Shown here: piece by piece, positions 7,362-35,714 of the stretch
Numbering within the stretch: position 1 is the first letter of the stretch
How the letters are laid out: every line of letters begins with the position of its first letter
Source: Lachnospiraceae bacterium
GTDB taxonomy: Bacteria > Bacillota > Clostridia > Lachnospirales > Lachnospiraceae
Assembly (NCBI GenBank): GCA_017444015.1
Contig: JAFSXN010000099.1
Span: 1 to 37,467 of the forward strand
DNA length: 37,467 nucleotides
Direction of reading: 5' to 3'
Notes under the pieces: generated by a model
Database searches by the model: none
What the model was told of the DNA's origin: nothing
Seen by the model: the letters and a program-made list of their open reading frames with translations, nothing else
Translations under genes and position numbers: made by a program

Positions 7362-7369
7362 TTTTACTG

Positions 7370-7464
7370 GTTACCATTCACGGGTCAGGATTGACTGGCA
7401 GATGCCGCTGGGAGCTTGCTCACAAAAGGCATCGGTCAGCCAATCCTGACCCGTGAATGGTAAC
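7370..7464. repeat. Long intergenic palindrome
   Basis: Positions 7370-7393 and 7441-7464 are perfect 24-bp inverted copies. Inside them, 7401-7406 (GATGCC) pairs with 7428-7433 (GGCATC), so nearly the whole 95 bp can fold into one long stem. It fills the gap between the sensor kinase stop and the transporter promoter. There is no T-run on either strand, so it is not a standard intrinsic terminator. Confidence 0.85.
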
Positions 7465-7466
7465 TT

Positions 7467-21880: not shown

Positions 21881-22009
21881 ATTGTGCCACCTCCTTGTTT
21901 TGGCAGTTCCCGCGGGAACCGCGCAGAAATCCGTTTCTGTTACATCTATATTGTATACCAAAAGCAACCGTCATCGAAAACCGTTCACGGCATTATTTCT
22001 GCCTTTCAC
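21881..22009 (-). promoter_or_regulatory. Shared promoter/leader module, copy A, with GGA-loop hairpin
   Basis: This 129-bp segment aligns with 35587-35714. Conserved parts on the coding strand are GTGAACGGTTTTCG, then 29 bases ending AATATAG, then TGTAACAG. Next comes a perfect hairpin of 6-bp arms CAGAAA/TTTCTG with loop CGGA (21924-21939), a perfect palindrome GTTCCCGCGGGAAC (21906-21919), and AAAACAAGGAGGTGGCA. GGA in a hairpin loop plus a second in the ribosome binding site is the layout of a CsrA target. CsrA binding is inferred. Confidence 0.65.
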
Positions 22010-22015
22010 TACATC

Positions 22016-22921
22016 TCAGTCCTTCTGTAAGGTAAATTCCACCCCATCAGAGCTGATATATTGCTCAATTTCCTCCCGCGTAATACTCGCTAAGACAGCC
22101 GGATCAAAATCCTCTCCCGCTTCCCAATCAGGGTCCGATTCCTTGACAGTCTCCGCAAAGTAACTGTTGTACATACGCTCATACCAGTAAAACGAAAGCA
22201 CTATAAAATATAAGGGCTTCCATACCTGATCGCAGCGTCTGATATGGGCAAGCTCATGCCGGATCACGTGCACCGCCTCCTCCATCGGAAGCCCGCAGGG
22301 AAGATATATTCTGGGCTTCAACAATCCGTAAAGGAACGGTACCTCTACATTCTCATCCAAATATACCTTTACATCCCTCTGCACATCATCAAAAGGGCTT
22401 ACAAGGATCCGGTAAAGCTCCGGAACGGCAAAGCGCAGCCTTCTTCCTGTTAGGAGCATCCCAAGCGCCATATATAAAAGCAGGAGCCCGCTTCCAAAGA
22501 GCCAGAGTACCGATAATACACTCCCATGTGTTGCGTGCCTCGTAGGTATAATATCCTGTGTACTGTCTGCCAAAACCTTCGGATTGTTCTTATCAGACAC
22601 CTCCGAAATCTCGGCAAATCCTTCACTCTTCGGAATATTACCTGCATCCGAAGTATTGTGGGTGACCGCCTGGAATGCACTGTGTATCCCGATGGGTCCT
22701 TCAAACAGAGCAAGTATTTCGGAAGTCTCAGGCAGGACGCCAAAGTCTGCTTCCAACGACACAGGCATGATAAGCCTGAGCAGAACAAGCAACCACAATG
22801 CACAAACATATTTATGAGGGACTCTGCCCTGAAACAGCCTCCTTATAACTAAGACCGCAAGTACCATGAAACTCCCGTAAATGGAATTAGCAAGGCACTG
22901 CCGTAAGATCCCGTCTGTCAT
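22016..22921 (-). CDS. Shortened M56 (BlaR1/MecR1-like) membrane metalloprotease
   Basis: A 301-residue membrane protein. It has N-terminal hydrophobic segments (about 14-28, 38-54), a linker, another membrane segment (about 136-158), and the zinc-binding VIRHELAHIRRCD motif at 220-230 with HELAH at 222-226. Family similarity ends soon after, near FIVLSFYW. The usual downstream CDE-type segment with the third zinc ligand is not visible, nor is a large extracellular sensor domain; a short acidic tail closes it. Family members cut a BlaI-type repressor on signal. Its start overlaps the BlaI-type gene by four bases. It may be inactive, remodelled, or dependent on another sensor, for which the lipoprotein at 36138 is a candidate. 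Confidence 0.85.
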   Translation of the reverse strand: MTDGILRQCLANSIYGSFMVLAVLVIRRLFQGRVPHKYVCALWLLVLLRLIMPVSLEADFGVLPETSEILALFEGPIGIHSAFQAVTHNTSDAGNIPKSEGFAEISEVSDKNNPKVLADSTQDIIPTRHATHGSVLSVLWLFGSGLLLLYMALGMLLTGRRLRFAVPELYRILVSPFDDVQRDVKVYLDENVEVPFLYGLLKPRIYLPCGLPMEEAVHVIRHELAHIRRCDQVWKPLYFIVLSFYWYERMYNSYFAETVKESDPDWEAGEDFDPAVLASITREEIEQYISSDGVEFTLQKD

Positions 22922-23331
22922 TTGTCCTTCCTGCAGCTGTCAATGATATCCTGCAGTTCATTCAGCTCAGCCTCCGTCAGCTTCCTTCCCCCTACAAAGG
23001 TTGCGACAAAACCCGGCAGGGATCCTGCAAAGCTGCGGTCTACGAAGGCGATGCTTTCTGCCTTGCGCGCCTCTTCCCTGCTGACTAGTGAGGTTACGGT
23101 TTTATCCTTAAACCTTACGACGCCCCGATCCGACAGCCTCTTTATGATCGTATAGGTTGTTGATTTGCTCCATTCCAGCTGCTCCTTGCAAAGCTTGACA
23201 AGCTCCGTACTGGAGATCGGCTCATTCGCCCACAATATCTCACAAAATCGGAATTCGCTGTTATTAATCCTCGGCGTGGATCCGCTTTTATTTATCTTTG
23301 ACGTTGCCATTTTCCCCTTTAACGTTGTCAT
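22918..23331 (-). CDS. BlaI/MecI-family transcriptional repressor
   Basis: A repressor of about 137 residues with a winged helix: FRFCEILWANEPISSTELV, then WSKSTTYTIIKRLSDRGVV and a short C-terminal dimerisation helix. These are the BlaI/MecI/CopY hallmarks. The start is either ATG 23331 (after GGAGGG) or ATG 23310 (after AAAGGGG); I list the first. The last codons overlap the M56 gene. The 43-bp dyad at 23350-23392 directly upstream is the likely self-operator, and its near copy at 35927 puts the lipoprotein gene at 36138 in the same regulon. Confidence 0.9.
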   Translation of the reverse strand: MTTLKGKMATSKINKSGSTPRINNSEFRFCEILWANEPISSTELVKLCKEQLEWSKSTTYTIIKRLSDRGVVRFKDKTVTSLVSREEARKAESIAFVDRSFAGSLPGFVATFVGGRKLTEAELNELQDIIDSCRKDK

Positions 23332-23349
23332 TTTTCCCTCCATAATAAT

Positions 23350-23392
23350 AGTCTACCATTGTCGACTTATTCAAAGTTTACAATAGTAGACT
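23350..23392. promoter_or_regulatory. BlaI-type operator, copy 1
   Basis: Dyad with arms AGTCTACCATTGTCGACTT and GTTTACAATAGTAGACT, seven bases apart, upstream of the repressor gene. On the minus strand TTGAAT and TATTAT, 18 bp apart, lie within or beside it, so the repressor would block its own promoter. The arms carry the TACAAT/ATTGTA-type core seen at BlaI-family sites. Confidence 0.75.
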
Positions 23393-23513
23393 GAATCTGT
23401 CAATGGTTTTTCACTTCCTAATCGGGGCTTTATTATTTACGAATGCAGTTTACAACAGAAAAGCTGCAGCTCACGTATTTAAGGTTTATTCTGAATTGAT
23501 TTCTGACGATAGG

Positions 23514-23541
23514 TAAAGTGAGAACAGAGTTTTGTCGTTTA
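23514..23541 (+). promoter_or_regulatory. Weak sigma-28-like promoter
   Basis: TAAA at 23514-23517 is followed after 16 bases by GTCGTTTA, a partial match to GCCGATAT. The arrangement TAAA-N12-TTTTGTC, preceded by GATAG, is also found upstream of the FlxA-like gene (31015 down to 30993, minus strand), so the two genes may share a promoter type. Confidence 0.35.
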
Positions 23542-23571
23542 TTATAGCTTATAAAAGAAAGGAGCCTGGTT

Positions 23572-24462
23572 ATGAATATCAGCGGTTTGAGCAATATAAA
23601 CACGTCCCACGCAATAAACAAGCAAAAAGCAGATTCAAGGAATATAGAAAAACCCGCATGGAATGGGAAAAAGGCGTTTACCTATTTGGAGGATATGGGA
23701 AAAGCCGGTATAGAATATGGTATCAAGGCGAAGCAATACTACACGTCAAAAACAGTTGTTGATGGTGAAATGTCAGTAGACGATCTGAAAAAGCAGATCA
23801 AAGAATGGTTTCCGGAATATACCTTGACAAGTTCTGAACCGAGAGATGTAGTCAAGGATAAGTATTATCTATATATTGATGACAGCCAGCTTAAGAAAAT
23901 GGCATCCGATCCGACATACAGGGGGCAGGTCTATGGGTTGATGGACAGGGAATATACGACCGGCCAAGAATACACACTTACATATAGTGACGGTGTAAAT
24001 AAGACCATGCATCTGACGGGAAGCGTTTTTTCACTAAGTGAAGCCAACAGAAAATATGCGGGTCCGGATGGCATACCTTATCATGGAAGCTGTACCAGCG
24101 ACAACAGTATATCGTCTTCAACCTCTCATGTACAAGTGAGAAGCCAGAGTTTCCTGTATGATCATCTTGATCCCGTAAAATCAGCCAGAAAGAGCCGAAC
24201 ACTTGTGGCCAGATCACAGGCTGAGAAATTAGCTGAAAAAAGAGCTGAAAAGAAGAAAATTGCTGCAAAAGAGACTAAGAAAGCTGAACAGAAGCGTTCG
24301 GATGAAAAGCGGGAAGCTAAGAGAATTGCGGAAAAAGAACATTTGGAAGAATTGTTGTCGGAAGATGCGGATATCTTTGATACAGATAAAGAACAGGATT
24401 CAGGATATTATGGGGCGTCAGCGCTGATAAAAGCCGGCGCAAAATTTGACGCAGCTGTATAG
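23572..24462 (+). CDS. Hypothetical protein, paralogue of the gene at 29243
   Basis: A 296-residue protein starting MNISGLSNINTS, with AAAGGAG seven bases before the ATG. There is no signal peptide or membrane segment. Residues 1-200 form the conserved part (KAFTYLEDMGKAGIEYG, WFPEYTLTSSEPRDVV, LYIDDSQLKKMASDP, GLMDREYTTGQEYTL, GPDGIPYHGSCTSDNS). Residues about 205-260 are a Lys/Glu/Ala-rich coiled coil, followed by an acidic tail. The minus-strand gene at 29243 is well over 80% identical up to the coiled coil. I do not recognise a named domain. The Asn-rich N-terminus resembles those of neighbouring putative flagellum-exported proteins; function unknown. Confidence 0.8.
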   Translation: MNISGLSNINTSHAINKQKADSRNIEKPAWNGKKAFTYLEDMGKAGIEYGIKAKQYYTSKTVVDGEMSVDDLKKQIKEWFPEYTLTSSEPRDVVKDKYYLYIDDSQLKKMASDPTYRGQVYGLMDREYTTGQEYTLTYSDGVNKTMHLTGSVFSLSEANRKYAGPDGIPYHGSCTSDNSISSSTSHVQVRSQSFLYDHLDPVKSARKSRTLVARSQAEKLAEKRAEKKKIAAKETKKAEQKRSDEKREAKRIAEKEHLEELLSEDADIFDTDKEQDSGYYGASALIKAGAKFDAAV

Positions 24463-24469
24463 AAATGAT

Positions 24470-24495
24470 AAAAGGATCGGGAAACCGATCCTTTT
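24470..24495. terminator. Bidirectional intrinsic terminator
   Basis: AAAAGGATCGG at 24470-24480 pairs perfectly with CCGATCCTTTT at 24485-24495 around a GAAA tetraloop. It separates the converging hypothetical and MerR-family genes. Confidence 0.9.
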
Positions 24496-24511
24496 GCTCA
24501 GTCATATCTGA

Positions 24512-25375
24512 TTATTTGTAAAACCCTTGCCCCGTATAAAACGCTTCTATCGCTTCTCCGATATATTTTGCGGATCCGTTCCCATAAACAGAATCTACAC
24601 CTTTTGCCAGTTCTTCATTCTCCTGATATCCTTTCGCAATATCCATTAAAAGCGGTCTTGCATCTACAACCTGATAAAGCTGTTTTGCGACAAAATCATA
24701 CTCACCGATCAGTTGCCGGACTTCAAATGAATTTACATTGGTTCCCTTCATATCTGCCAGTTTCTTTGAGATGCTTCCAATCCTCACCTGATATGCCGTG
24801 AACACCTCTGATTTTGGAGGATTCTTCAAAGATTCCTTTACAGCCTCCCTGCTTCCATACCACTCAACCACTTTTGCATAGTTCTTCTGAACCTTTTCAT
24901 CGGAAGCACCTTCTATCATATGCTTCTCCCACTCATGGATGCTGCCGTAACGGTCTATAAAGATCTGCTTCTGCGATTCATTCATATTTTGCAGCATTTC
25001 TGAAAACATAGCTCGAAGCTCCGTTTCATCAAATACCTTAAAGTCCATATCATGATCTCCTTTCAATATATTGTCAAAATTGGCAATAATACGCTCCAAT
25101 CTCTGTTTTTTCAAACAGAGCATTTCACGCTGCTTTGCCAAAACGCTGCTGCGATCAAGATCGGGATTATCCATAATGAGTTTAATATCCGCAAGCGGAA
25201 GCTCCAGCTCGCGAAACACCAGTATTTGTCCCAGCTTTTCTATGGCCTTATCGTCATAAAGCCGATATCCTGCTTCCGTTACTTCTGTGGGCTTAAAAAG
25301 TCCGATTTCATCATAGTAATGAAGCGTGCGCACTGAGATACCTGTAAGCTCCGAGACTTCTTTAACTGTTTTCAT
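24512..25375 (-). CDS. MerR-family regulator with TipAS-type ligand domain
   Basis: A 287-residue regulator. Residues 1-70 are the MerR winged helix (VKEVSELTGISVRTLHYYDEIGLFKPTEVTEAGYRLYDD), then a dimerisation coiled coil (about 80-110). Residues about 140-285 match the TipAS antibiotic-binding domain, with the WEKHMIEGASDEKV stretch. Proteins of this type bind peptide antibiotics or other drugs and activate promoters with an over-long spacer. Its own upstream region has exactly that (19-bp spacer), so it probably controls itself. No transport or resistance gene adjoins it, so further targets must lie elsewhere. Start ATG follows CAGGAGGAGAACCATA. Confidence 0.92.
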   Translation of the reverse strand: MKTVKEVSELTGISVRTLHYYDEIGLFKPTEVTEAGYRLYDDKAIEKLGQILVFRELELPLADIKLIMDNPDLDRSSVLAKQREMLCLKKQRLERIIANFDNILKGDHDMDFKVFDETELRAMFSEMLQNMNESQKQIFIDRYGSIHEWEKHMIEGASDEKVQKNYAKVVEWYGSREAVKESLKNPPKSEVFTAYQVRIGSISKKLADMKGTNVNSFEVRQLIGEYDFVAKQLYQVVDARPLLMDIAKGYQENEELAKGVDSVYGNGSAKYIGEAIEAFYTGQGFYK

Positions 25376-25406
25376 TATGGTTCTCCTCCTGTTTCTTGAT
25401 AAAGAT

Positions 25407-25437
25407 ATCCTAGTCTATCACGTAACGTAAGAGTCAA
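25407..25437 (-). promoter_or_regulatory. MerR-type promoter with 19-bp spacer
   Basis: On the minus strand, TTGACT (25432-25437) and TAGGAT (25407-25412) are separated by 19 bp. A near-perfect dyad, TTACGT-T-ACGTGA, lies in the spacer. This is the classic layout bent into activity by MerR regulators. Confidence 0.85.
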
Positions 25438-25536
25438 TAGAAATTTTCATCTTTTAATATACCATTAGAAAAGAGCGCAATCACTACCACAGAACGTCCT
25501 TTCGTGACATTTAACCGTCTGTTTATGACATTACCG

Positions 25537-25564
25537 TAAAGAAAAGGAAGAAGCGTGCCGATAT
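25537..25564 (+). promoter_or_regulatory. Sigma-28 (flagellar) promoter
   Basis: TAAA at 25537-25540, 16 bases, then GCCGATAT at 25557-25564. The -10 is a perfect match to the SigD/FliA consensus and the spacing falls in the known 14-16 range. It points at the hypothetical gene at 25696, leaving a leader of about 125 bases. Confidence 0.85.
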
Positions 25565-25590
25565 AGATGGCAAGTGAATAACGCAGGGAG

Positions 25591-25639
25591 GCGTGTATTT
25601 CAATGGATTGATTTCATGGGGAGGGATGCACGCTTTTTT
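25591..25639 (+). terminator. Terminator-like hairpin inside the leader
   Basis: GCGTGTAT at 25591-25598 pairs with ATGCACGC at 25626-25633 (one mismatch), followed by six T. It lies between the sigma-28 promoter and the ATG at 25696. The loop holds an inner CAA-TGGA-TTG hairpin and GGGGAGGG. It could act as an attenuator. Confidence 0.6.
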
Positions 25640-25695
25640 ATTGTAAAAATACGTTTTCGGCTCTTTACGACAGAGGAACCGCGGAAAGGAGTTGT

Positions 25696-27042
25696 ATGGC
25701 AGTAGCAGGAATGGGAATGTATCAGAGCAGCACTTCATTTTTTGGAATGTATACAAATGGGAAAGCTGTCGGTGCACGAGAAATCATAGAACAGAATATT
25801 ACGAACGGAAAAATCCAAAAGGCTATGGATGGTTATGAATTTATGAAGATACAGGGAGAACTCATCCGTAGAAATCAGGAAGAGGCTTCCAGAAATCAGA
25901 AATCGACAAAGGAAATGCTTTTGGAACAGGATCCTGCTGCGCCGGGCAGATGGTATACTTACGGAAGTGACAGCAGAAGGTATACGTTTGATGAGTTTTG
26001 CAAGCTTAGGGATGATATGTGGGCCAAAGAGCGTGCAAATGCCGGGATTCCTAAAAATGATTACCTTGAAATAGCAAATCAGTATTTGCAGGAAAAAGAA
26101 ATTGAAGAAGATCCTTTGGGGATGGGGTTTGCCCTGGCGGGAAATATGGGATATGGTATGTCGGCATCTCTTGTGACCTCGGATGCAAATAGTGATGTGA
26201 TAGTCAGGGTTAAGGTAGCTCAGGGAGGCGGCGTGAATGAGACGGTTGATGTCAATTTGTCTGAATTTGATCCGAAGAATGCTACGGCCGTTGAGATGTT
26301 CGCATATTGTCAGTACCAGGATGCGATCGGCGGAGGGTCAGACTATAAATGGGGAAGCTGGAATGCGGTCAAAACAGCCGTTTCGCCTGCAGATGGTTTG
26401 AACTTCGGTTCTCTTGATAATATCATGAATGAGAAAAGAAACTGGACCGGGGCACTGGCAGGAGCAAAGACAACCATGGAGAATCAGAAAACCGGTGAAA
26501 CTTTAACTGCGGCGGATCTCTTAAGAATGTTTGAGGAACAGAATAAACTGACAGCCGAGGAATTAAAGCAAGAGGATGACTGGCGCAGCATGTCGGAGGA
26601 TGACTGGGATAAGCTGTTATCAGGAGTAGATGAGTATATTGATGCGTATAAGGCGGATATCCGGGAGAGAGTGAAGAAACAGCTGGAGGCGGCGCAAAAG
26701 GCTGCTCTGGCGGCAGATCCGGAAATGAAATCCACAGCCGCCAAGGAAGCAGCTCTCTCGGTGGCTGCCAGCGGATTTGATAGTGGAAGTCCTTCAGAAG
26801 GAAAGGCATCCGAGGAGCCGATAAGCGAAGCTCCCGGTACAGAGCATGAAAAGAACTGGACACGCTCGCTTAAAACGGATGATCAGGTAGTCCTGCGTAC
26901 CGCAAAGGAGGCTCAGACTATGGAGAGCATGACTATGAACAGAATAGCGGAAATAACAATCTCAGAAGTGGCTGCATATGAATCGCATAACGGTGTTTCC
27001 ACATGGTATAGAAGAGATAGAAGATTTATGAATTTTGCGTGA
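25696..27042 (+). CDS. Hypothetical protein with sigma-28 promoter (448 aa)
   Basis: A 448-residue protein with no signal peptide or clear membrane segment. It starts MAVAGMGMYQSSTSFFGMY, a Gly/Ser/Met-rich stretch like other exported axial proteins. Then come a charged segment (about 60-150), a Gly-rich central part (GFALAGNMGYGMSASLVTS, about 155-175), a stretch of about 270-320 with repeated acidic helices (SEDDWDKLL), and an Ala/Lys-rich coiled coil. No known domain was recognised. AAAGGAG lies six bases before the ATG. The strong flagellar promoter upstream places it in the motility regulon. A secreted or filament-associated role is inferred only from that and from the N-terminus. Confidence 0.8.
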   Translation: MAVAGMGMYQSSTSFFGMYTNGKAVGAREIIEQNITNGKIQKAMDGYEFMKIQGELIRRNQEEASRNQKSTKEMLLEQDPAAPGRWYTYGSDSRRYTFDEFCKLRDDMWAKERANAGIPKNDYLEIANQYLQEKEIEEDPLGMGFALAGNMGYGMSASLVTSDANSDVIVRVKVAQGGGVNETVDVNLSEFDPKNATAVEMFAYCQYQDAIGGGSDYKWGSWNAVKTAVSPADGLNFGSLDNIMNEKRNWTGALAGAKTTMENQKTGETLTAADLLRMFEEQNKLTAEELKQEDDWRSMSEDDWDKLLSGVDEYIDAYKADIRERVKKQLEAAQKAALAADPEMKSTAAKEAALSVAASGFDSGSPSEGKASEEPISEAPGTEHEKNWTRSLKTDDQVVLRTAKEAQTMESMTMNRIAEITISEVAAYESHNGVSTWYRRDRRFMNFA

Positions 27043-27067
27043 GATACACAGGTTTCTGTACGTTAGG

Positions 27068-27771
27068 CTATGATTTCGCTATCCCTTCTTCCCGCCTATG
27101 CCTCACGGCATAAGCCTTGGAGATCTTACCAAGCGTTTTCAACTTTTCCTCTGGCTTAATATCGCATTTCTTTTCAAACTCCCGTATCCAAGCCGTATCC
27201 TCTTCCCTATATGGATCCTTGAGAAAGCGTCTTATGAATCTTGATAGCTGGCTTCGGAACGTCCAGGCGAGGTCTGCAGCCTTATTGACAGCATCAAAAT
27301 CTTTAACAGTTTGTGACGCATCTGTTATTCCCATCAGGTACCTTAAAATCAACACATCAGCAAAGGTAAAAGGCATTACATCATCTTCAAATTGGAGAAG
27401 CGACATATACGGCCCGCCCTGCTTTGTGTCGTCTGTCACTAGAGAGTATGCTCCTAATGTCTGTGCCAGAGAAATCGCATAGACTTCTCCTAAATCACTG
27501 ACTCCATATAAGAGTCTGTTTTCCTTGAAGTTATTCTCAAAAATCTTATATACTGCCAGATCTTTTAACTTTTGATCTGTGTATATTTCTATTTTACCCG
27601 ATGCAATATCAGCATCAACCGCTTTAAGCACATCCCTTCCGTGATTTTCAAGTTCTATGTTCCGGATCTGCGCGTATATAAATACACCCTCATCAAAACA
27701 TCAAACAACACACTCTGGAGTCCCGCCTTGTAGAGGTGTATGATCACATTTGTATCTAAAGAGGCTCTCAA
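27068..27771 (-). pseudogene. PIN-domain protein gene broken by a one-base frameshift
   Basis: The reading frame begins at TTG 27771 (AGGAGG upstream), overlapping the ImmA-type gene's stop, and encodes LRASLDTNVIIHLYKAG, the canonical PIN start with its first aspartate. At the AAAA run 27695-27698 (TTTT on the coding strand) the frame is lost. Adding one T would continue into DEGVFIYAQIRNIELENHG and on through an open frame to 27068, including SDLGEVYAISLA and VTDD, which supply further acidic residues of the PIN site. The intact product would be about 234 residues and a likely RNase toxin or effector of the XRE-ImmA cassette. The downstream part alone (from about 27631) lacks the first catalytic aspartate. 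A sequencing error or programmed slippage is possible. Confidence 0.8.
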
Positions 27772-28586
27772 TCTTCCAGACCTCCTATCAGATCATCCAG
27801 ATCATCATCTTCCTCCGGGAATTCCACGAGTCTATCACTTATATCTTCTATGGTAAGCTGATAGCATTCCAGTACCTTTTCCAAAGTCTCCCTGGGGATC
27901 GCATTATGGTTATAATTATATATAACATAATCGATATACTCGTATGGAATGGCTATTTCATTACCCGCAATATTTAATCGCGAATTGCCGCCAATACTCT
28001 TTAGAAGATTTCCTACCCGTTTCTCAGTCCTCTCCGTTTCCAGTTGTGTTTTCTGCTGTCCGTCAATCTTCCCCAAGTACTCAAGCCTGTTCAGTGCCAC
28101 ATCATAGCTGACATTAAACTCAGACATAATTCTCGCTATATCCATACCAGATAATCCGTTCTTCTCAAAATCAGGTAGTTCCAGATCAATAAAGCGCTCT
28201 ATCTCATCTGATGGCATCAGCAAACAGGCCGCAAAATAATTCGCTTCCTGTTCCTTTTCATCTCCACTGCCTCCGGCGATTGTTGCATTATTATCAATAA
28301 ATGGCTGCTCCCCATTAAGGTGAAGCATAGCGTGTCCTATTTCGTGGGCCAACGTAAAGATTTCTCTGGAAAGCCTGATGCTGGTATTAATAAAGATGAC
28401 GATATCATCATCCTTTTTCAAAGCAAAACCAAGATCCCCATTCTCTCCAAGAGGATATCTGAGCAGCTTATACCCTATACGATCACATTCCTTGAACAGA
28501 TCTATAATCCCGTATCGGCTGATCTTACACTTTTCGCGAAAGGAATCTGCCTGTATCCTTATTTCCCTTTTCCTACTGCCAAGCAT
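27768..28586 (-). CDS. ImmA/IrrE-family metallopeptidase
   Basis: A 272-residue protein with the zinc-protease motif FTLAHEIGHAMLHL at about residues 80-93, followed by the third-ligand region EKEQEANYFAACLLMP. This is the ImmA/IrrE domain (DUF955). Such proteases cleave or inactivate a partner XRE repressor, and that partner is encoded 12 bp upstream. The C-terminal ~80 residues are acidic and end DDLDDLIGGLED, running into the PIN gene by overlap. AAGGAGG precedes the ATG. The three genes make an XRE-ImmA-PIN cassette, seen widely in mobile elements and toxin-antitoxin-like loci. Confidence 0.9.
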   Translation of the reverse strand: MLGSRKREIRIQADSFREKCKISRYGIIDLFKECDRIGYKLLRYPLGENGDLGFALKKDDDIVIFINTSIRLSREIFTLAHEIGHAMLHLNGEQPFIDNNATIAGGSGDEKEQEANYFAACLLMPSDEIERFIDLELPDFEKNGLSGMDIARIMSEFNVSYDVALNRLEYLGKIDGQQKTQLETERTEKRVGNLLKSIGGNSRLNIAGNEIAIPYEYIDYVIYNYNHNAIPRETLEKVLECYQLTIEDISDRLVEFPEEDDDLDDLIGGLED

Positions 28587-28598
28587 AGAAATTCCTCC

Positions 28599-28931
28599 TT
28601 ATACCCTGTTTCTATGTTGTAATCTCGAGTACATATGCTTATTTGCGTAGAAAAGATCCAGCATTTCAAAAATCTTCTCAGAAGAATTTCCATCCGTCCC
28701 TGCACGATACGCTACTTCAGGTTCTTCATCAAGAACCCTGGTTATATCACCAACAGTCACATCCAGCATTTCCGCTATTTTCGCAAGGATGTCAAGTGTA
28801 ATACTATTGGTACCGTTCTCAACACGGGCATACTTTTGTCTGCTGATCCCAAGATGATCTGCAACTTGTTCCTGTGTATAATTTTTTGCTGTCCTCAAAG
28901 CCTTTATACGGCTACCCAGTAATGCGTTCAT
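28599..28931 (-). CDS. XRE-family helix-turn-helix regulator
   Basis: A 110-residue protein. The N-terminal helix-turn-helix (LGSRIKALRTAKNYTQEQVADHLGISR... VENGTNSITLDILAKIAEMLDV) is a textbook XRE/Cro domain, followed by a short C-terminal arm. I take the ATG at 28931, six bases after AGGAGGG; an ATG at 28937 abuts the ribosome binding site. The perfect 8-bp inverted repeat at 28989-29010 just upstream of its promoter is the likely operator. It should repress the cassette until the adjacent ImmA-type protease acts. Confidence 0.92.
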   Translation of the reverse strand: MNALLGSRIKALRTAKNYTQEQVADHLGISRQKYARVENGTNSITLDILAKIAEMLDVTVGDITRVLDEEPEVAYRAGTDGNSSEKIFEMLDLFYANKHMYSRLQHRNRV

Positions 28932-28955
28932 GTCCATCCCTCCTTTTCTGATTTT

Positions 28956-29010
28956 ATTGTATCACGGATCAGAGCGATGTCAACAAAGAATGTTATGATT
29001 TTATAACATT
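28956..29010 (-). promoter_or_regulatory. Promoter and operator of the XRE-ImmA-PIN cassette
   Basis: Minus-strand TTGACA (28978-28983) and TACAAT (28956-28961) are 16 bp apart. AATGTTAT at 28989-28996 and ATAACATT at 29003-29010 form a perfect inverted repeat just upstream of the -35. The remaining 160 bp up to the repeat at 29174 shows no gene. Confidence 0.85.
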
Positions 29011-29173
29011 AGTTTTCTTGCATGTTCCGTTTCTATCCCATTTGATCCCTTTAAGACCCCCGTCTTCTATTTCGCGATTTTTCTACTTAAAGTACCTTTT
29101 ATGGCTTATTTACGTTTTCATCTTTACTATCAGCGGTAGCTGCAAACAAAAAAACAGGCACTATCTGCGAATT

Positions 29174-29277
29174 TATACTGGTTAACGATTTTCGTTGCCG
29201 ATCAACCGGACTCGCAAACGCAATTCCAGTACGTTTACTTTATCAAAAACGGCAATTAATTGCGTTCGCGAGTATAA
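29174..29277. repeat. 104-bp palindromic repeat, copy 1
   Basis: Begins TATACTGG and ends GAGTATAA, with an internal stem of 16-bp arms, ACTCGCAAACGCAATT and AATTGCGTTCGCGAGT (one mismatch). It differs from the copy at 35732-35835 at only five of 104 positions. There is no coding capacity of its own. It overlaps the 3' end of the gene at 29243, supplying that gene's last codons and stop. Confidence 0.9.
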
Positions 29278-30076
29278 GGCCTTTTACAGTAACTTTAAAA
29301 AGCAGGCGGTCGTATTCCGCGATCCTCCTGGCTTTCCGCTTTTCATCCAATCGTTTCTGTTCTGCTTTTTTAGCCTCTTTTTCCGCAGCTTTCTTCTTTT
29401 CAGCCCTTTTTTCTGCTAATTTCTCAGCCTGTGATCTGGCTGCAAGTGTTCGGCTTTGTCCGGCTGATCTTACGGGATCAAGATGATCATACAGGAAGCT
29501 CTGGCTCCTTACCTGTATGTGAGAAGCTGAAGACGATATGCTGTTGTCGCTGGTACAGCTTCCATGATAAGGTATGCCATCCGGACCGGCATATTTTCTG
29601 TTGGCTTCACTGAGCGAAAAAACACTCCCTGTCAGATGCATGGTCTTGTTTACACCGTCGCTATATGTAAGTGTATATTCCTGGCCGGTCGTATATTCCC
29701 TGTCCATCAATCCATAGACTTGCCCCCGGTATGCCGGATTGGATGCCATTTCCTTAAGCTGGCTGTCATCAATATAGAGATAATGCTTACCATGGACTAC
29801 ATCCCTCGGTTCAGAACTTGTCAGGGTATATTCCGGAAACCATTCCTTGATCTGCTTTTTCAGATCATCTACTGACATTTCCCCATCAGAGACGGTTTTT
29901 GACGTATAGTATTGCTTCGCCTTGATACCATACTCTATACCGGCTTTTCCCATATCTTCCAAACAGGTAAACGCCTTCTTCCCGTTCCATGCAGGTTTTT
30001 CTATACTCCTTGAATCTGCTTTTTTCTTGTTGATTACGTTGGATGTGTTTATATTGCTCAAACCATTGATATTCAT
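29243..30076 (-). CDS. Hypothetical protein, paralogue of 23572 with replaced C-terminus
   Basis: A 277-residue protein, close to the 296-residue plus-strand paralogue up to the coiled coil (KKAEQKRLDEKRKARRIAE). After that, homology stops. The remaining ~20 codons read through a terminator-like GACCGCCTGCTTTTT sequence and into the 104-bp repeat, ending ILANAINCRF, so the acidic tail of the paralogue (YYGASALIKAGAKFDAAV at its end) is missing. The ATG at 30076 follows AAAGGAG by seven bases, exactly as in the paralogue. It lies 40 bp behind the FlxA-like gene on the same strand, so they are probably co-transcribed. Function unknown. Confidence 0.75.
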   Translation of the reverse strand: MNINGLSNINTSNVINKKKADSRSIEKPAWNGKKAFTCLEDMGKAGIEYGIKAKQYYTSKTVSDGEMSVDDLKKQIKEWFPEYTLTSSEPRDVVHGKHYLYIDDSQLKEMASNPAYRGQVYGLMDREYTTGQEYTLTYSDGVNKTMHLTGSVFSLSEANRKYAGPDGIPYHGSCTSDNSISSSASHIQVRSQSFLYDHLDPVRSAGQSRTLAARSQAEKLAEKRAEKKKAAEKEAKKAEQKRLDEKRKARRIAEYDRLLFKVTVKGLILANAINCRF

Positions 30077-30116
30077 AACCATACTCCTTTATATTCTAAT
30101 AAACTATACATATTCA

Positions 30117-30944
30117 TCACACCTTCACATCCACATTATTTCCGGCAGGTTCATTGGTTCCGTTGCTGACCGTAATTCCTTCCGAAACCACATCAACAGA
30201 CTCGTATCTCACGGGCTCAGCTGTATTATCGGTATCCACTGTAGCAACATCAGATCGCGCACCCAGCTTCTGATCAAACTGATCGGCCTTATCCTTGTCC
30301 TCGGTCTGATCCTGCCTGTTAACCTTTTTATCTGCCTCGCGATCATCTTCAGCAGCTTCCTTCAGGTCCTTTTCAGTCTTGGAAAGGATCTCCATCTGCG
30401 ATGATGTTATATCCTGAACCTTCGCTTCCACGTCGGCCAGTTCTTCCCTTTTCCTTGTCGTATCTCCGCCTCTGGCCCCATCCAGTTTGATCTCGGACTC
30501 TAAAACCCCGGCTCTTCCTTCCATCTCAGACTTCACAGCTCCCTGCGCCTTTACCTGATGCATGGATGAATCGGCAGAAATAATAGCCTGCATACTCGCA
30601 CTCGATATACCGGCACTACCCTTTTGGGCCTGAGCAGTCTGCCTGTTGCCTCCCAGCATATCATCCAAAGAGGAGCCGCTTTTCTGCTGATTCTCTTTTC
30701 TCTGCTCGATCTGATGCTGCCTAAGCTGATTCTGCAGATCGCTGATCTGCTGTTGGATCTCCTGACGTTTCTTCATCTTCTCTTCCAGAGACATCTCCTT
30801 ATTTTCGCCAAGCTCCTGCATCTGCTTCTGGGCATTTGCAATTTGGTTCTGAAGATCCTTGCTGACGGCATCCGTGCCCTGGTTCATTTTCATCTGGAGT
30901 GCGGGTACGCCTGTTCTGTTCCCGTTAATACTATTTACATCCAT
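30117..30944 (-). CDS. FlxA-like coiled-coil protein
   Basis: A 275-residue protein, starting MDVNSINGNRTGV, without a signal peptide. Residues about 25-90 form a long Gln/Glu/Lys coiled coil (LQNQIANAQKQMQELGEN... RQEIQQQISDLQNQLRQHQIEQR) that resembles FlxA-like proteins, a family named after a flagellar-regulon gene. The SLDDMLGG motif follows, then a second charged helical region (about 150-235) and an Asn/Val-rich tail. AAGGAGGG precedes the ATG at 30944. The leader carries a GGA-loop palindrome as in three other genes here. Placement in a flagellar regulon is inferred from family and leader. Confidence 0.7.
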   Translation of the reverse strand: MDVNSINGNRTGVPALQMKMNQGTDAVSKDLQNQIANAQKQMQELGENKEMSLEEKMKKRQEIQQQISDLQNQLRQHQIEQRKENQQKSGSSLDDMLGGNRQTAQAQKGSAGISSASMQAIISADSSMHQVKAQGAVKSEMEGRAGVLESEIKLDGARGGDTTRKREELADVEAKVQDITSSQMEILSKTEKDLKEAAEDDREADKKVNRQDQTEDKDKADQFDQKLGARSDVATVDTDNTAEPVRYESVDVVSEGITVSNGTNEPAGNNVDVKV

Positions 30945-31015
30945 GCTGTTTCCCTCCTTGCAATTCATTCCTGAAATCCATTTGATATCTATGACAAAAT
31001 GCACATTCTCATTTA
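30945..31015 (-). promoter_or_regulatory. Leader of the FlxA-like gene with GGA-loop palindrome
   Basis: On the coding strand TCAAATGGATTTCA (30972-30985) places TGGA between AAA and TTT arms and is followed by a second GGA (CAGGAAT), 12 bases before the AAGGAGG site. The stretch AAATGGATTTCAGGAAT is identical in the leader at 34824. TAAA at 31012-31015 followed by TTTTGTC at 30993-30999 matches the arrangement upstream of 23572. Confidence 0.55.
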
Positions 31016-31283
31016 CTATCATTTTCGGATGCAAATATCCCAAAATAAACCCCCATGAAGTGAACGGTATATTTATCGATGTAAACGGTCAATCACTGCT
31101 CTGAAATCATTAATCGGCGTAATCTCCGGCAGAAAAATTAGCTCATGGATGGATGACAGCAGAATATAGAAATCCGTATCAGGCCTTTCAAAGAAACCAG
31201 AGAACCGGAAATTATAGAGGAATGTTACTACAACGTTCTGCCTCAGATAGTTCGTTGCAACATACATAGTCGTTCATCTTTTC
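31016..31283. other. Gap with no supported gene
   Basis: A 64-codon minus-strand frame (31073-31267) exists but has no ribosome binding site and no recognisable domain. The plus-strand pieces TGAACGGT (31060) and TAAACGGT (31082) resemble the GTGAACGG core of the modules at 21881 and 35587 but lack the rest. Confidence 0.4.
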
Positions 31284-31312
31284 TTGAATAATTCACGTTT
31301 ACGTGATAAGAT
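31284..31312 (+). promoter_or_regulatory. Sigma-A promoter with palindromic operator
   Basis: TTGAAT at 31284-31289 and TAAGAT at 31307-31312 are 17 bp apart. The spacer holds a perfect palindrome, TCACGT-TT-ACGTGA (31293-31306). It would drive the XRE remnant and the antitoxin gene behind it. Confidence 0.75.
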
Positions 31313-31335
31313 AAAAATGTTTTTGGATGTATACT

Positions 31336-31386
31336 ATGGCAGTAAGCTATAAGAAATTATTTCATCTTATGATTGATGTGGAGTAG
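31336..31386 (+). pseudogene. Remnant of an XRE-family regulator
   Basis: Sixteen codons, MAVSYKKLFHLMIDVE then stop. The start is the typical N-terminus of a small Cro/C1-type regulator family in Firmicutes (MAxSYKKLxxLLID...), whose proteins normally run to about 65-75 residues. The promoter and palindromic operator upstream are intact, so this appears to be the truncated autoregulator of a lost operon. Confidence 0.5.
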
Positions 31387-31469
31387 ATAATATCCTTAAA
31401 TTTGTGCCAGACGAGGCAAATAATTAATCTTAACATAGTTGGAAACGTACAATTATGAAAGGAGATATA

Positions 31470-31649
31470 ATGACAAACACACAGGCATGGGATTATGCAG
31501 TAGGCATGATAAAGGTGGACGGTCTGGAACCAACACCGGAATTTAAGGAATACATTGAAAAGGAAAAGCGTGGTGAGGTTACGATGGCCGACATCAAGCA
31601 ATACCCTGATAAGAAATATAAGGTAAAAGAGGATGCGGTAAATGCGTGA
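31470..31649 (+). CDS. VbhA-like antitoxin
   Basis: A 59-residue protein (MTNTQAWDYAVGMIKVDGLEPTPEFKEYI...RGEVTMADIKQ). The AxxxxMIKVDGLEPTPEF segment followed by a helix and the GEVT turn matches the VbhA-type antitoxin fold, in which a helix blocks the active site of a Fic AMP-transferase toxin. AAAGGAG lies six bases before the ATG at 31470. The next frame overlaps its stop codon, as toxins usually do, but is truncated. It therefore looks like an orphan antitoxin kept after loss of its toxin. Confidence 0.7.
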   Translation: MTNTQAWDYAVGMIKVDGLEPTPEFKEYIEKEKRGEVTMADIKQYPDKKYKVKEDAVNA

Positions 31650-31740
31650 CATCTATCTCAAACAAAGCTCCGTAATGCCCCACGCTGATTTCATGATTCG
31701 TGAACTTCTCCCTTATCGGTTTGGTGATTTTATGGCTTAA
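31642..31740 (+). pseudogene. Truncated toxin remnant behind the VbhA-like gene
   Basis: A 32-codon frame, MRDIYLKQSSVMPHADFMIRE..., starting at an ATG that overlaps the antitoxin's last codons. The first residues resemble the start of Fic proteins that follow VbhA antitoxins (M-x-D-x-Y-L); the rest does not, and the Fic core HPFxxGNGR is absent. Probably the leftover of a deletion. Confidence 0.45.
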
Positions 31741-31794
31741 TCTTATCCTTTCTTTTGGTTGCAATCCTGCTTTTTACATAATAAATCAAGATTC

Positions 31795-33471
31795 TTATTG
31801 TTTGATCAGCAGCTTCACTTTCGCCTGCTTCTGGAAGAACGCTACTCCATAGCAAAGTATCTGTTCATAACCATAAAGTCCTTCTGCATATTTTTCCGTA
31901 ATGATCTGATCGATCGCCTCATCACAATCTTTGTCCAGATCAGCTTCCTTTTCAGACTTCTTTGCCTCAACGATGATGGCTCTCCGGTTATCGTCGTCCT
32001 TCAGCAGAATATCCGGTCTGCCAGGTCCTTTTTCCTTATTGGACTCAACTTCATAGCCAATCCCGACAAAGATCCCGGCAAGGAACGCATGATAGTAATC
32101 CTCGTGGTAATCATTGTAGCTGATCGTCCTCCAGAGAAGCTCCGAAACGATCCTTTCCGCCTCTCCTGCATCCATATTCCAAAACGCCTCCATCATGCTG
32201 TTCTGCATATTGACATCCAGCGTTTCCTTGAACAGTCTGACAACGGTATCTTCAAAGATGGAAGCGACCTCCCTGTTCGGGATTTTAAGGCGGACGGTTT
32301 CTCCCTCTTCTTCGGCATCCTCCTTTGTGATATAGCCTGTCATCAGCAGGACGCTCCAAAGATTATCCTCCGATGAATGCAGGGTGTCATATGTCAGTTC
32401 GTCCGTGATCGTCTGCGTGATCGTCCCGCCATTCATAAGTGTTTCAAATTTGCCTTTTACCTTAAAGTCCGTCCGCTTTACGAATGTGAGCAGGATCCCG
32501 TTATGGCTGGTATTTTTCCAATAGTTTTTCGGTCTGGCATCCGGATACTTGCGAAGCTCTGACAGGAAATTGATCACATCCCAGGGGCAATAAACAAAGC
32601 TGTTCCCAAATACATAGCCATCATACCACTCTTTTATCGTATCTCTCCTGCCCGCCCTATCCGCAGCAGCAAGCATGCGATCAACCTCGTCGCCCGTAAA
32701 GCCGAAATATCCGGAAAAATTCTTATCAATAACAGAATAGGAAGCAAAATTATTCGTACCTGTAAAGATGCTTTCTTTCGCGATCCGAAGACATCCCGTG
32801 ATCACGGCAAATTGAAGGAACTCGTTATCTTTAAGGGCAGTACTCATGATCCCCTTAATAACATCCAGCATCCTGGAATAATACCCATTCTTTGCGATAT
32901 CTTTTTCGCTTGCCTTTGCCAGAGGGACATCATACTCGTCAATCAGGAGAATAACCTTTTTACCATAGACAATGCTCATCATTCGCATGAGCGTTTTTAA
33001 GGAATTCTTTATATCAGATTTTTTCCCGGATTCAGCTTTTAACCTCCGAAATGCATCCCTGTCATCTTTATCTACAGCATCCGTATCAATTATATCTGCA
33101 AGATCTTTACATACATCCGCAAGTCTTACACCTAACATGTCGTAGGCATCATCGAATTCTTCTGCTTCAACATCCTTAAACGAAATAAACAATACCGGAT
33201 ACTGATTCATCCACTCCTTACAGAAATCCTCATGTTCCGTTATGGCAAGCCCTTCAAATATGCGCTCGCTATTCTTCCGAATACTAAAGAAATACTCAAT
33301 CGTGCTCATCATGAGTGTTATTCCAAACCTGCGTGTTCTGGTAAAGAGCGTAACCTCATTATCCGTATCATTAACAAGTTCGTAAATCAGTTCCGTCTTA
33401 TCAACATAATAATTTCCTGATTCCCTGAGCGCCGCAAAATCCGATTTTCCAACACCTACCTTAAAATCCAT
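31795..33471 (-). CDS. AAA-ATPase-like / PD-(D/E)XK nuclease-like protein with altered Walker A
   Basis: A 558-residue protein with the AAA-ATPase_like plus DUF1703 arrangement. The N-terminus KVGVGKSDFAALRESGNYYVDKTELI is typical of the family. The P-loop block reads FTRTRRFGITL where the family has FTRPRRFGKTL, so the Walker A lysine is replaced by isoleucine. Walker B (KVILLIDEYDVPLAKA) is intact, as is the C-terminal nuclease-like motif GRPDILLKDDD...AIIVEAKKS. The cellular role of this widespread family is not established. The ATG at 33471 follows AAAGGAG by eight bases. A good sigma-A promoter lies upstream. ATP hydrolysis is doubtful in this copy. Confidence 0.88.
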   Translation of the reverse strand: MDFKVGVGKSDFAALRESGNYYVDKTELIYELVNDTDNEVTLFTRTRRFGITLMMSTIEYFFSIRKNSERIFEGLAITEHEDFCKEWMNQYPVLFISFKDVEAEEFDDAYDMLGVRLADVCKDLADIIDTDAVDKDDRDAFRRLKAESGKKSDIKNSLKTLMRMMSIVYGKKVILLIDEYDVPLAKASEKDIAKNGYYSRMLDVIKGIMSTALKDNEFLQFAVITGCLRIAKESIFTGTNNFASYSVIDKNFSGYFGFTGDEVDRMLAAADRAGRRDTIKEWYDGYVFGNSFVYCPWDVINFLSELRKYPDARPKNYWKNTSHNGILLTFVKRTDFKVKGKFETLMNGGTITQTITDELTYDTLHSSEDNLWSVLLMTGYITKEDAEEEGETVRLKIPNREVASIFEDTVVRLFKETLDVNMQNSMMEAFWNMDAGEAERIVSELLWRTISYNDYHEDYYHAFLAGIFVGIGYEVESNKEKGPGRPDILLKDDDNRRAIIVEAKKSEKEADLDKDCDEAIDQIITEKYAEGLYGYEQILCYGVAFFQKQAKVKLLIKQ

Positions 33472-33497
33472 TTGCAAGTCTCCTTTCCGCAGAGTAA

Positions 33498-33526
33498 ATA
33501 CTATCACAAAGCCTTCAACACTTCAA
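33498..33526 (-). promoter_or_regulatory. Sigma-A promoter
   Basis: Minus-strand TTGAAG (33521-33526) and TAGTAT (33498-33503), 17 bp apart, 27 bases before the ATG of the AAA-ATPase-like gene. Confidence 0.7.
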
Positions 33527-33594
33527 TTACAATCATTAACATAACTCGTTGTCATAGGCTATCTGCAAATTTAAGCCGTTCACAGAAGCAAAAA

Positions 33595-33635
33595 AGCAGG
33601 CGGAATTTCCGCCTGCTCAGACAAATGGTAGTACA
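33595..33635 (-). terminator. Intrinsic terminator with conserved 3' tail
   Basis: AGCAGGCGGAA/TTCCGCCTGCT (33595-33605/33607-33617) followed on the minus strand by six T. It lies 55 bp past the stop of the gene at 33672. The ACAAATGGTAGTACA beside it is identical to that at 20855, so two separate genes carry the same 3' tail. Confidence 0.9.
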
Positions 33636-33671
33636 TTGAAATATCGTTTTAATCCGCCCTTTTTCGCTGCT

Positions 33672-34796
33672 CTAAAAAACAGTAATCCCCTGTAATAGTG
33701 CGTTTATATCGACTCCCTTGTTTTGCTGATATTGTTTGATAAAGGAATCTGCCGCCCTGGTCATAACATCACTAAAATCCTTCGGAACCGAATCCTTTTT
33801 GTATTTCTCCAGAAGCTCATTTGCCTCTTTTGCAATCCCTGCTCTGTCTCCGCTGATCTCCGAAACCTTCTTCGCATGAGCGGACAGGATATCCAAGACA
33901 TGCGAGTCTCGGTTGGCGGCATAACGATCAGCATAGTCCTTATAGGCTTTGTCCAGCTCCTTTAGCTCTTCGTCCATGGTCAGCTTCCGATATCCTCCCT
34001 CAGCTGTTTTATCCTCCACATAGGTCTCCCTGGTTCCTGCCTCATAGCCCTTAACGATTTCATCGTAAAGTCCTGCATAAGCCTTTAACAGATTAGAAGC
34101 AGTATCCGATACGGAAAAGTAATTCCGGACGTACTCCCCGTTTTCGTCCTTTTCCCCATAAACAGAAGGCATCCTGCCAGCCAATTCATGAGAATAATCC
34201 GTCATGACTGGAGTATTCTTTACGGCAGACTCCTTTGCCGACTTTTCATTATTCGGGATCTTCAACCAGGGATACTGCCGTTTCATATCCCACTTGAGCA
34301 AAAACAGCGCTTCATTATTATTCGGGTCAAAGCCCTCCCGTTTCGTTTTGGCTCTGATCGCCTCAAACTTCTCATAGGCGTCCGGATCCGCTTCTTTCAT
34401 ATCCTTCAGTATTTCCTCTCCGGAACGCGCATTTGGAACCGATTTCAGTTCCTCCTCTGTCAGCTGTTTCGTTCCTTCCAGGTATGTGATCATCCCTTCC
34501 GGAATTTCCTTATGTTCTTCCGGTAAGTCCTTCACCATGGAACGATTCGCAAGCGCCGCCAACCCGTCGCCGGAAAACTCCACAATCACCTCGTCGCCGT
34601 ACTGCGAGGAAATCTCCTTCATCGTCCGAAGGGTTTCCTCTCTGGACATCTTGTCCATAACCTTATTGCCCTGCTCATCGGTAGTATTGAATTCATACTT
34701 CACAAGAGAAGTCTTCTGGCCGGACCCTGAGCCATAGTGGCTGATCGGTTCCATTCCTTTGTAAAACCGGCTGTAGTCTGTATTGATCCCTGTCAT
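33672..34796 (-). CDS. Hypothetical protein with sigma-28 promoter (374 aa)
   Basis: A 374-residue protein without signal peptide or membrane segment, starting MTGINTDYSRFYKGMEP. It is hydrophilic and mostly helical by composition. Visible parts are a VKYEFNTTDEQGNKV strand region (about 30-50), TMKEISSQYGDEVIVEFSGDGLAAL (about 58-82), an acidic middle, and a C-terminal helical region ending NKGVDINALLQGITVF, which resembles the amphipathic ends of axial flagellar proteins. No named domain was recognised. AAAGGAGGG precedes the ATG at 34796. It has a strong sigma-28 promoter, a GGA-loop hairpin at the mRNA 5' end, and a 3' tail shared with the FliD-like gene. Confidence 0.82.
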   Translation of the reverse strand: MTGINTDYSRFYKGMEPISHYGSGSGQKTSLVKYEFNTTDEQGNKVMDKMSREETLRTMKEISSQYGDEVIVEFSGDGLAALANRSMVKDLPEEHKEIPEGMITYLEGTKQLTEEELKSVPNARSGEEILKDMKEADPDAYEKFEAIRAKTKREGFDPNNNEALFLLKWDMKRQYPWLKIPNNEKSAKESAVKNTPVMTDYSHELAGRMPSVYGEKDENGEYVRNYFSVSDTASNLLKAYAGLYDEIVKGYEAGTRETYVEDKTAEGGYRKLTMDEELKELDKAYKDYADRYAANRDSHVLDILSAHAKKVSEISGDRAGIAKEANELLEKYKKDSVPKDFSDVMTRAADSFIKQYQQNKGVDINALLQGITVF

Positions 34797-34823
34797 CCTT
34801 TCTGCCCTCCTTTGGCGTATTCC

Positions 34824-34874
34824 TGAAATCCATTTCACCTATTATTTATATCGGTATTTCGTACCCTATATTTA
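34824..34874 (-). promoter_or_regulatory. Sigma-28 promoter and GGA-loop hairpin
   Basis: On the minus strand TAAA (34871-34874) is followed after 15 bases by ACCGATAT (34848-34855), a seven-of-eight match to the SigD/FliA -10. Predicted transcription starts near 34841, so the mRNA would begin almost at TGAAA-TGGA-TTTCA (34824-34837), a perfect 5-bp hairpin with GGA in the loop, 10 bases before AAAGGAGG. Confidence 0.85.
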
Positions 34875-34929
34875 CCCAAATGATCCGAATGGTCGATACC
34901 TTTCTTAAGCTCCTTGCCTTTCAACTGTA

Positions 34930-35586
34930 TTAAGCCATACCGCCGCTACTTGCCTCAGATTCTTTCGACTTATAATAGTCCTCAAACAGCTTGTTTGCGG
35001 CGGACAGCGTATCATTGCTTATGCTCGGAAGATCTCTTCCCCAGGCATTCGTTGCCTGCTTAAAGCCTTTCTCCATAGCCGCCTGCATTTTCTTCATCTG
35101 GTCCACGTCATCGCCTGCCAGTGCGCTCGCGAAATCAAACAATCTCTGCGATGTCTGCTTTACGCCCCAGTAGCCATCTTCTCCGATATCCTTCTGCGCC
35201 TGCGCTTTCGTTGCGGCATCGACAGTATAATTACCTCCGGAAAGCATTTTCCAGAAATCATCGCCGTTGGCTTTCCCGTAAGCGCCTGCCTGCCCTGCGA
35301 TCGTTTTATTGACCAGATCTGCAAATTGCTGCTTCTGACGTTCTACCTCAGCGTTGAGCTTATCCACTAACGAGGCGCGATCCTCTTTGCTCATTTTATT
35401 GATGCTGTAAGGAGCGTTTTTTACTTCCTCGCTTTTTTCATATACAGCAGCCTCTTCCTGCTTCTTTACGGTCTCGACGTCAGCGTCTCCCCTGGATACG
35501 CCACTTTCTGCCGACCGCTGAACAGCCACGGTACTGTTAGATGCTATTGTCTGATTCGTCGTTACTCCATTGATTTCCATAGACAT
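34930..35586 (-). CDS. Conserved hypothetical protein of the putative flagellar set (218 aa)
   Basis: A 218-residue protein starting MSMEINGVTTNQ, with no signal peptide. Residues about 60-210 form a compact, mostly helical domain: KMSKEDRASLVDKLNAEVERQKQQF, then YTVDAATKAQAQKDIGEDGYWGVKQTSQRLFDFA, MQAAMEKGFKQATNAWGRDLPSIS and a last helix. I have the impression that this arrangement recurs in motile Lachnospiraceae, but I cannot name a family. AGGAGG lies nine bases before the ATG at 35586. Its 128-bp upstream region matches that of the FliD-like gene. It precedes the gene at 33672 by 133 bp on the same strand. Confidence 0.8.
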   Translation of the reverse strand: MSMEINGVTTNQTIASNSTVAVQRSAESGVSRGDADVETVKKQEEAAVYEKSEEVKNAPYSINKMSKEDRASLVDKLNAEVERQKQQFADLVNKTIAGQAGAYGKANGDDFWKMLSGGNYTVDAATKAQAQKDIGEDGYWGVKQTSQRLFDFASALAGDDVDQMKKMQAAMEKGFKQATNAWGRDLPSISNDTLSAANKLFEDYYKSKESEASSGGMA

Positions 35587-35714
35587 TTTCTGCCACCTCC
35601 TTGTTTTCATAATCCCTTGGGACATGTTTAGAAATCCTTTTCTGTTACAACTATATTTTAACCCAAAAACAGCATTTACCGAAAACCGTTCACTGCATCA
35701 TTCCGGCATTTCAC
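35587..35714 (-). promoter_or_regulatory. Shared promoter/leader module, copy B, with GGA-loop hairpin
   Basis: Aligns with 21881-22009. The coding strand shows GTGAACGGTTTTCG, 29 bases ending AATATAG, TGTAACAG, the hairpin AGAAA-AGGA-TTTCT (35630-35643), a TCCC..GGGA palindrome (35613-35622), and AAAACAAGGAGGTGGCA. The hairpin-to-ribosome-site distance is 27 bases in both copies. The stem sequences differ but keep pairing, which hints at selection for structure. Confidence 0.65.

Follow-up and report, generated by a model that had tools for sequence, protein, structure and literature searches.

The 5' leaders of several genes in a stretch of DNA of 37,467 nucleotides (nt) from a Lachnospiraceae bacterium (assembly GCA_017444015.1, contig JAFSXN010000099.1, positions 1 to 37,467; this whole stretch is called the window hereafter) carry short hairpins which expose the triplet GGA in a loop of four bases upstream of the ribosome site. 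These hairpins are real and occur far beyond chance, and they are probably CsrA-binding sites in the leaders of a gene group with several flagellum-linked members. The best reading of the sites, of their counterparts in related genomes and of the regulator genes is that late flagellum-linked genes of Lachnospiraceae form a regulon repressed by CsrA and probably relieved by FliW. This article describes the hairpins, their conservation, the regulators and the genes concerned, and compares them with known systems.

Hairpin sites in the window

Four genes, designated by the length of their products in amino acids (aa), are concerned. Their ribosome sites and the weak site of g275 were read from the sequence, and the three stronger hairpins were also found by a stem scan. 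All features are on the minus strand.

20909-21880, minus: g323, FliD C-terminus-like protein, 323 aa (Pfam FliD_C, 23.5 bits against a cut-off of 25.4)
21890-21896, minus: g323 ribosome site AAGGAGG with C directly 5'; candidate CsrA site 2
21924-21939, minus: g323 GGA hairpin CAGAAA-CGGA-TTTCTG, 6 pairs, loop CGGA; candidate CsrA site 1
30117-30944, minus: g275, FlxA-like protein, 275 aa (Pfam FlxA, E 1.1e-17)
30953-30959, minus: g275 ribosome site AAGGAGG with C directly 5'
30974-30983, minus: g275 weak GGA site AAA-TGGA-TTT, 3 pairs, loop TGGA
33672-34796, minus: g374, unnamed family, 374 aa (family matched in 7 of 117 related genomes)
34806-34812, minus: g374 ribosome site AAGGAGG with A, not C, directly 5'; candidate CsrA site 2
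34824-34837, minus: g374 GGA hairpin TGAAA-TGGA-TTTCA, 5 pairs, loop TGGA; candidate CsrA site 1
34930-35586, minus: g218, unnamed family, 218 aa (family matched in 65 of 117 related genomes)
35596-35602, minus: g218 ribosome site AAGGAGG with C directly 5'; candidate CsrA site 2
35630-35643, minus: g218 GGA hairpin AGAAA-AGGA-TTTCT, 5 pairs, loop AGGA; candidate CsrA site 1

The hairpins end 11-27 bases before AAGGAGG, which supplies a second GGA in all four leaders. The core ANGGA lies in the hairpin loops of g323, g218 and g374, and g275 has it on 3 pairs only. The two strands of the window together contain exactly three NGGA tetraloops with at least 5 Watson-Crick pairs, each of them in a leader. 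The four palindromes reported by the initial annotation are where it had placed them, except that the weak one is at 30974-30983 and not at 30972. Its view of them as four recurrent instances holds for the three strong sites, which are real; the fourth site is weak and two of the leaders are copies of one. The leaders of g323 and g218 are similar throughout (50 of 68 alignment columns identical) and are probably one duplicated leader, so their hairpins are not independent. A second inverted repeat is kept between hairpin and ribosome site in both (21900-21922 and 35606-35626, minus strand), with differing sequences, GGTTCCCGCGGGAACTGCC and ATGTCCCAAGGGATTAT.

Frequency of the hairpins in the genome

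A 241-kb sample of this genome contains 7 NGGA tetraloops with at least 5 pairs in 481,736 strand-bases, and among 142 leaders of the sample none has at least 5 pairs and one has at least 4. The draft genome was searched with GGAT-N8..36-AAGGAGG-N4..10-ATG, a pattern confined to this loop neighbour and this ribosome site; 62 places were listed and 64 matches, some inside genes, were read from the fetched loci. Stems of at least 5 pairs were found among these only before the flagellin gene fliC, g323, g218 and g374. A covariance model, R1, trained on g218-family leaders of other genomes, gave as its best whole-genome match the g275 leader (E 0.28) among the 150 of 3124 candidates scored. When applied to the window directly it found 34806-34839 and 4702-4734, both of which had been missed in the genome run, and five of its six other genome matches were unlike the leaders of the families described here. 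Because of this incomplete scoring, the missed sites and the unlike matches, pattern searches were relied on.

Pairing and the ANGGA core in related leaders

The g218 family, of which the best 80 named loci are labelled mainly as Lachnospiraceae, Pseudobutyrivibrio, Butyrivibrio or Roseburia, gave 132 non-redundant leaders, that of the window among them, after removal of 16 near-duplicates from 148; two loci (L124 and L129) with no usable leader were left out. All GGA triplets that lie 5' of the ribosome site and at most 75 nt from the start were tested regardless of pairing (n = 142), and 25 of these 142 sites have at least 4 pairs around the tetraloop, as against a mean of 1.34 and a maximum of 7 in 2000 trials in which the 3' arms were swapped between sites. 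When all 64 loop triplets were ranked in these leaders, GGA came first and the next triplets had 5. The other genes of the 80 named loci have 21 paired sites out of 316 (arm-swap mean 1.97, maximum 7), and random leaders of the window's own genome have none out of 196 (arm-swap mean 0.96). In addition, eight of ten leaders of the g323-like family carry the hairpin on stems that differ in sequence. Covariation in orthologous leaders, proposed by the initial annotation as a check, is thus borne out, since pairing is kept while the sequence changes, also in other families. Pair counts on one set of 15 leaders (A3, 100%) were not counted as evidence, as these leaders had been chosen for pairing and the count would be circular.

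When sites were chosen by three outer pairs alone, with no selection for A, the base two before GGA was A in 36 of 38 paired sites as compared with 84 of 139 GGA in the g218 family as a whole, and in 27 of 28 as compared with 121 of 316 in the neighbouring genes; in random leaders it was A in 2 of 8 sites. The ANGGA core consequently emerges unprompted. The base directly 5' of AAGGAGG is C in 56 of 83 leaders of the g218 family; for the neighbours the count is 18 of 53, and for random leaders 2 of 12. The GGA of the ribosome site is itself enclosed by pairing in 13 of 94 g218-family leaders (arm-swap mean 2.0, maximum 7), and the neighbours show no such excess (1 of 79; arm-swap mean 0.25).

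Five g218-family leaders (L138, L140, L143, L151 and L152) have a palindrome TTAACA(GA or AA)TGTTAA shortly 5' of the ribosome site, at the place where their close relatives have TAACA-AGGA-TGTTA. The palindrome may be a remnant which has lost GGA, or alternatively a protein-binding site in the DNA.

A search blind to genes was made in 61 genomes with one type of stem, GAAANGGATTTC-N4..34-AGGAGG-N4..11-ATG. It gave 28 places; the 16 genomes that contain them all belong to one genus. The same pattern read backwards gave none in the 61. As two sites were listed twice, the 28 places are 26 sites; some of these belong to leaders that are nearly identical between related genomes and are hence not independent. 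Each of the 26 lies 5' of a gene that belongs to one of six families: g323-like (10), DUF6033 (6), an unnamed MAI(D/N)L family that was grouped by eye (4), g275-like (3), g374 (2) and g218 (1). The matches in the window's own genome are exactly three window genes. In two loci (L302 and L313) another palindrome with GGA in its loop, GAACAA-TTGGAT-TTGTTC, lies 5' of the hairpin GAAA-AGGA-TTTC of a MAIDL-family gene; the number of GGA sites may thus reach three in some leaders.

That the hairpins are merely chance palindromes in AT-rich leaders is hardly credible. Four-pair NGGA hairpins are indeed common: the window has eight more, of which one (4720-4731) precedes an ABC permease gene; this site before the gene at 4691 was judged to be chance. 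The random leaders, the arm swaps, the triplet ranking and the reversed pattern, however, all contradict chance, which is ruled out for the three strong sites and could apply to that at 30974-30983.

CsrA, FliW and the flagellin gene

The initial annotation had suggested control by CsrA and FliW, and the genes for both are present, in the fliC locus. A Pfam search found two csrA genes in the genome, and the one of 71 aa (csrA1) adjoins the only fliW (E 3.4e-37). The order of the locus is fliC, fliS, fliD, flaG, csrA, fliW, flgL, flgK and flgK, in which flaG, csrA, fliW and flagellin were named by Pfam and the others by position and sequence. The leader of fliC contains GTGGCA-AGGA-TGCCAC with its GGAT 21 nt before AAGGAGG, and in flaG the GGA of the ribosome site itself sits in a loop, ATCAC-ACGGAG-GTGAT. 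Thirty flagellin loci of relatives were collected, of which 8 had no start and 22 were used, with larger loops allowed; 11 of the 22 leaders, counted without a shuffle control, have a GGA hairpin of at least 4 pairs. In ten of these eleven leaders the hairpin ends 23-31 nt 5' of the start, and in the other it lies over the ribosome site. In the non-flagellin leaders the distance from GGA to the start is 31-36 nt in 13 of 24 cases and 31-37 nt in 13 of 20, so the geometry of the hairpins is similar in both.

The second csrA-like gene, of 61 aa (L002:1465-1650; G000:C135:22157-22306, minus strand), is outside the flagellar cluster and upstream of a GH94 phosphorylase gene; is it a carbohydrate-linked CsrA paralogue? 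Its presence gives some ground for supposing that an RNA-binding protein other than the fliW-linked CsrA, such as this shorter paralogue, reads the sites. Such a reader is unlikely, because the flagellin of relatives carries the same element and most csrA-bearing genomes list one csrA match only. The presence of csrA in 79 of 117 relatives makes its co-occurrence with the hairpin uninformative.

Promoters and predicted folding

Promoters of the sigma-28 type were sought as TAAA-N15-CCGATAT. The full pattern is found in 15 of 59 leaders with the hairpin, 22 of 327 without it and 2 of 142 random leaders, and in the window one of the four genes has such a promoter.

34847-34874, minus: sigma-28-type promoter of g374, TAAA-N15-ACCGATAT, a pattern match 9 bases before the hairpin

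The gene at 25696-27042 (plus strand) also has a sigma-28-type promoter (25537-25565), followed by TCAATGGATTGA (25600-25611), which lies within a longer predicted stem. It is not claimed as a further target, as its GGA is paired in the predicted fold.

In folding calculations the g323 stem forms as drawn, with pair probabilities of 0.55-0.95, and the fliC stem is likewise predicted. The position of the g374 hairpin, 9 bases past the promoter and so near the expected 5' end, would suit a structural role of the hairpins, either protection of the 5' end of the messenger RNA (mRNA) or shaping of ribosome standby, with GGA incidental and CsrA uninvolved. This role is improbable, as it leaves unexplained the first rank of GGA among the 64 loop triplets, the A before NGGA and the retention of hairpins of low stability.

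Several observations nevertheless weigh against CsrA-binding sites as the explanation. The g218 stem is not favoured (pair probabilities about 0.03), that of g374 is weak (about 0.13) and that of g275 is not predicted; in all three leaders pairing with downstream sequence is favoured over the hairpin. No window leader folds significantly better than its shuffles (z -1.04 to +1.30). The tetraloop form is found in only 24 of 132 g218-family leaders, no recognisable sigma-28 promoter was found for g323, g218 and g275 (three of the four window genes), and the leaders of g323 and g218 amount to one duplicated leader. Furthermore, the flagellin count has no shuffle control, and a csrA-less draft (G036, 87% complete) still has such a leader. 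On the folding, CsrA also binds weakly structured GGA sites.

Proposed mechanism

If the hairpins are CsrA sites, one face of the CsrA dimer would most likely hold the ANGGA of the hairpin and the other the GGA of the AAGGAGG ribosome site, some 17-45 nt downstream, and this bridging would keep the ribosome off and repress translation. FliW, freed as flagellin is exported, would then capture CsrA and the genes would be released. Since the same kind of element lies about as far from the start in flagellin mRNA, these genes would be repressed together with flagellin, and release by FliW on flagellin export would place them in the phase after hook completion, alongside flagellin. A wider and more tentative proposal, which is somewhat doubtful, is that in Lachnospiraceae a whole class of late flagellar proteins, accessory or exported (headless FliD-like, DUF6033, FlxA-like, g218, g374 and others), is subject to the CsrA-FliW flagellin checkpoint and that the GGA hairpin has arisen on, or been copied to, unrelated genes repeatedly. 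The hairpin would in that case be a readable tag for anonymous flagellar cargo. The regulon itself would extend flagellin homeostasis to a set of anonymous gene families of common gut and rumen bacteria, and its hairpin would serve as a sequence tag predicting which uncharacterised proteins belong to the flagellum. The CsrA targets of commensal Lachnospiraceae become directly testable.

Products of the genes and other features of the window

The initial annotation had spoken of non-flagellin genes, and none of them is flagellin; several nevertheless fall in flagellum-linked families. The FliD_C score of g323 is below the cut-off, a relative passes it (25.8 bits), and the family profile matches a FliD structure weakly (E 0.037). 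The gene g275 is the sole FlxA match in the genome, and a Pfam search gave no family for g218 or g374. In one relative, RUI362 (locus L108), a g323-like and a g218-like gene are adjacent, with a hairpin before the first of them.

The window also contains a pair of very similar DUF6033-like genes, one on each strand (23572-24462, plus; 29243-30082, minus), the leaders of which have no such hairpin, though DUF6033 genes of relatives carry one. An Rfam scan up to E 5 gave seven matches, of which none reached the gathering score and none fell on the hairpin leaders. One of the families matched below threshold is the group II intron D1-D4 (26949-27112, minus strand, 27.2 bits, gathering score 32). 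An inverted repeat between two genes at 7367-7467, with chance-level Rfam microRNA matches on both strands, is probably a shared terminator.

Comparison with known systems

In Bacillus subtilis the hag leader is under CsrA-FliW control and has two GGA sites, one of which is over the ribosome site (PMC7652899). The leaders described here likewise have two GGA sites, with csrA and fliW in the flagellar locus, but the target there, as that paper describes it, is flagellin, whereas here several non-flagellin families carry the sites. In Campylobacter jejuni, flagellar mRNAs, including that of the sigma-28-dependent flaG, are bound by CsrA at ANGGA in the loops of hairpins, with FliW as antagonist, and the targets include flaA, flaB, flaG, flgI, flgA and flgM (PMC4894983). 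The ANGGA core in hairpin loops of flagellum-linked leaders is shared with that system; the genes and the phylum are different, the C. jejuni regulon is backed by experimental data, and the families of the window are not among the genes named for C. jejuni in the accessible part of that paper. Consequently, the suggestion of the initial annotation that CsrA control of non-flagellin genes would be new does not hold in general, as flaG, flgI, flgA and flgM of C. jejuni are known cases (PMC4894983), and it appears to hold for this gene set. A literature search on CsrA and FliW in Lachnospiraceae, Roseburia, Butyrivibrio and clostridia, and on DUF6033, mostly outside subscription journals, found no report of the set.

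Among the clostridia, FliC, FliW and CsrA of Clostridioides difficile form a flagellin checkpoint that concerns flagellin, toxin and metabolism (PMC8523840, PMC11898703); the same three parts are present here, and the accessible text of those papers does not mention the families of the window. For Roseburia and Eubacterium, csrA at the flagellar locus has been reported and flagellin promoters have been analysed, CsrA sites not being described in the accessible text (PMC3720852). The kind of regulation is therefore known; the regulon described here seems to be a new case of it.
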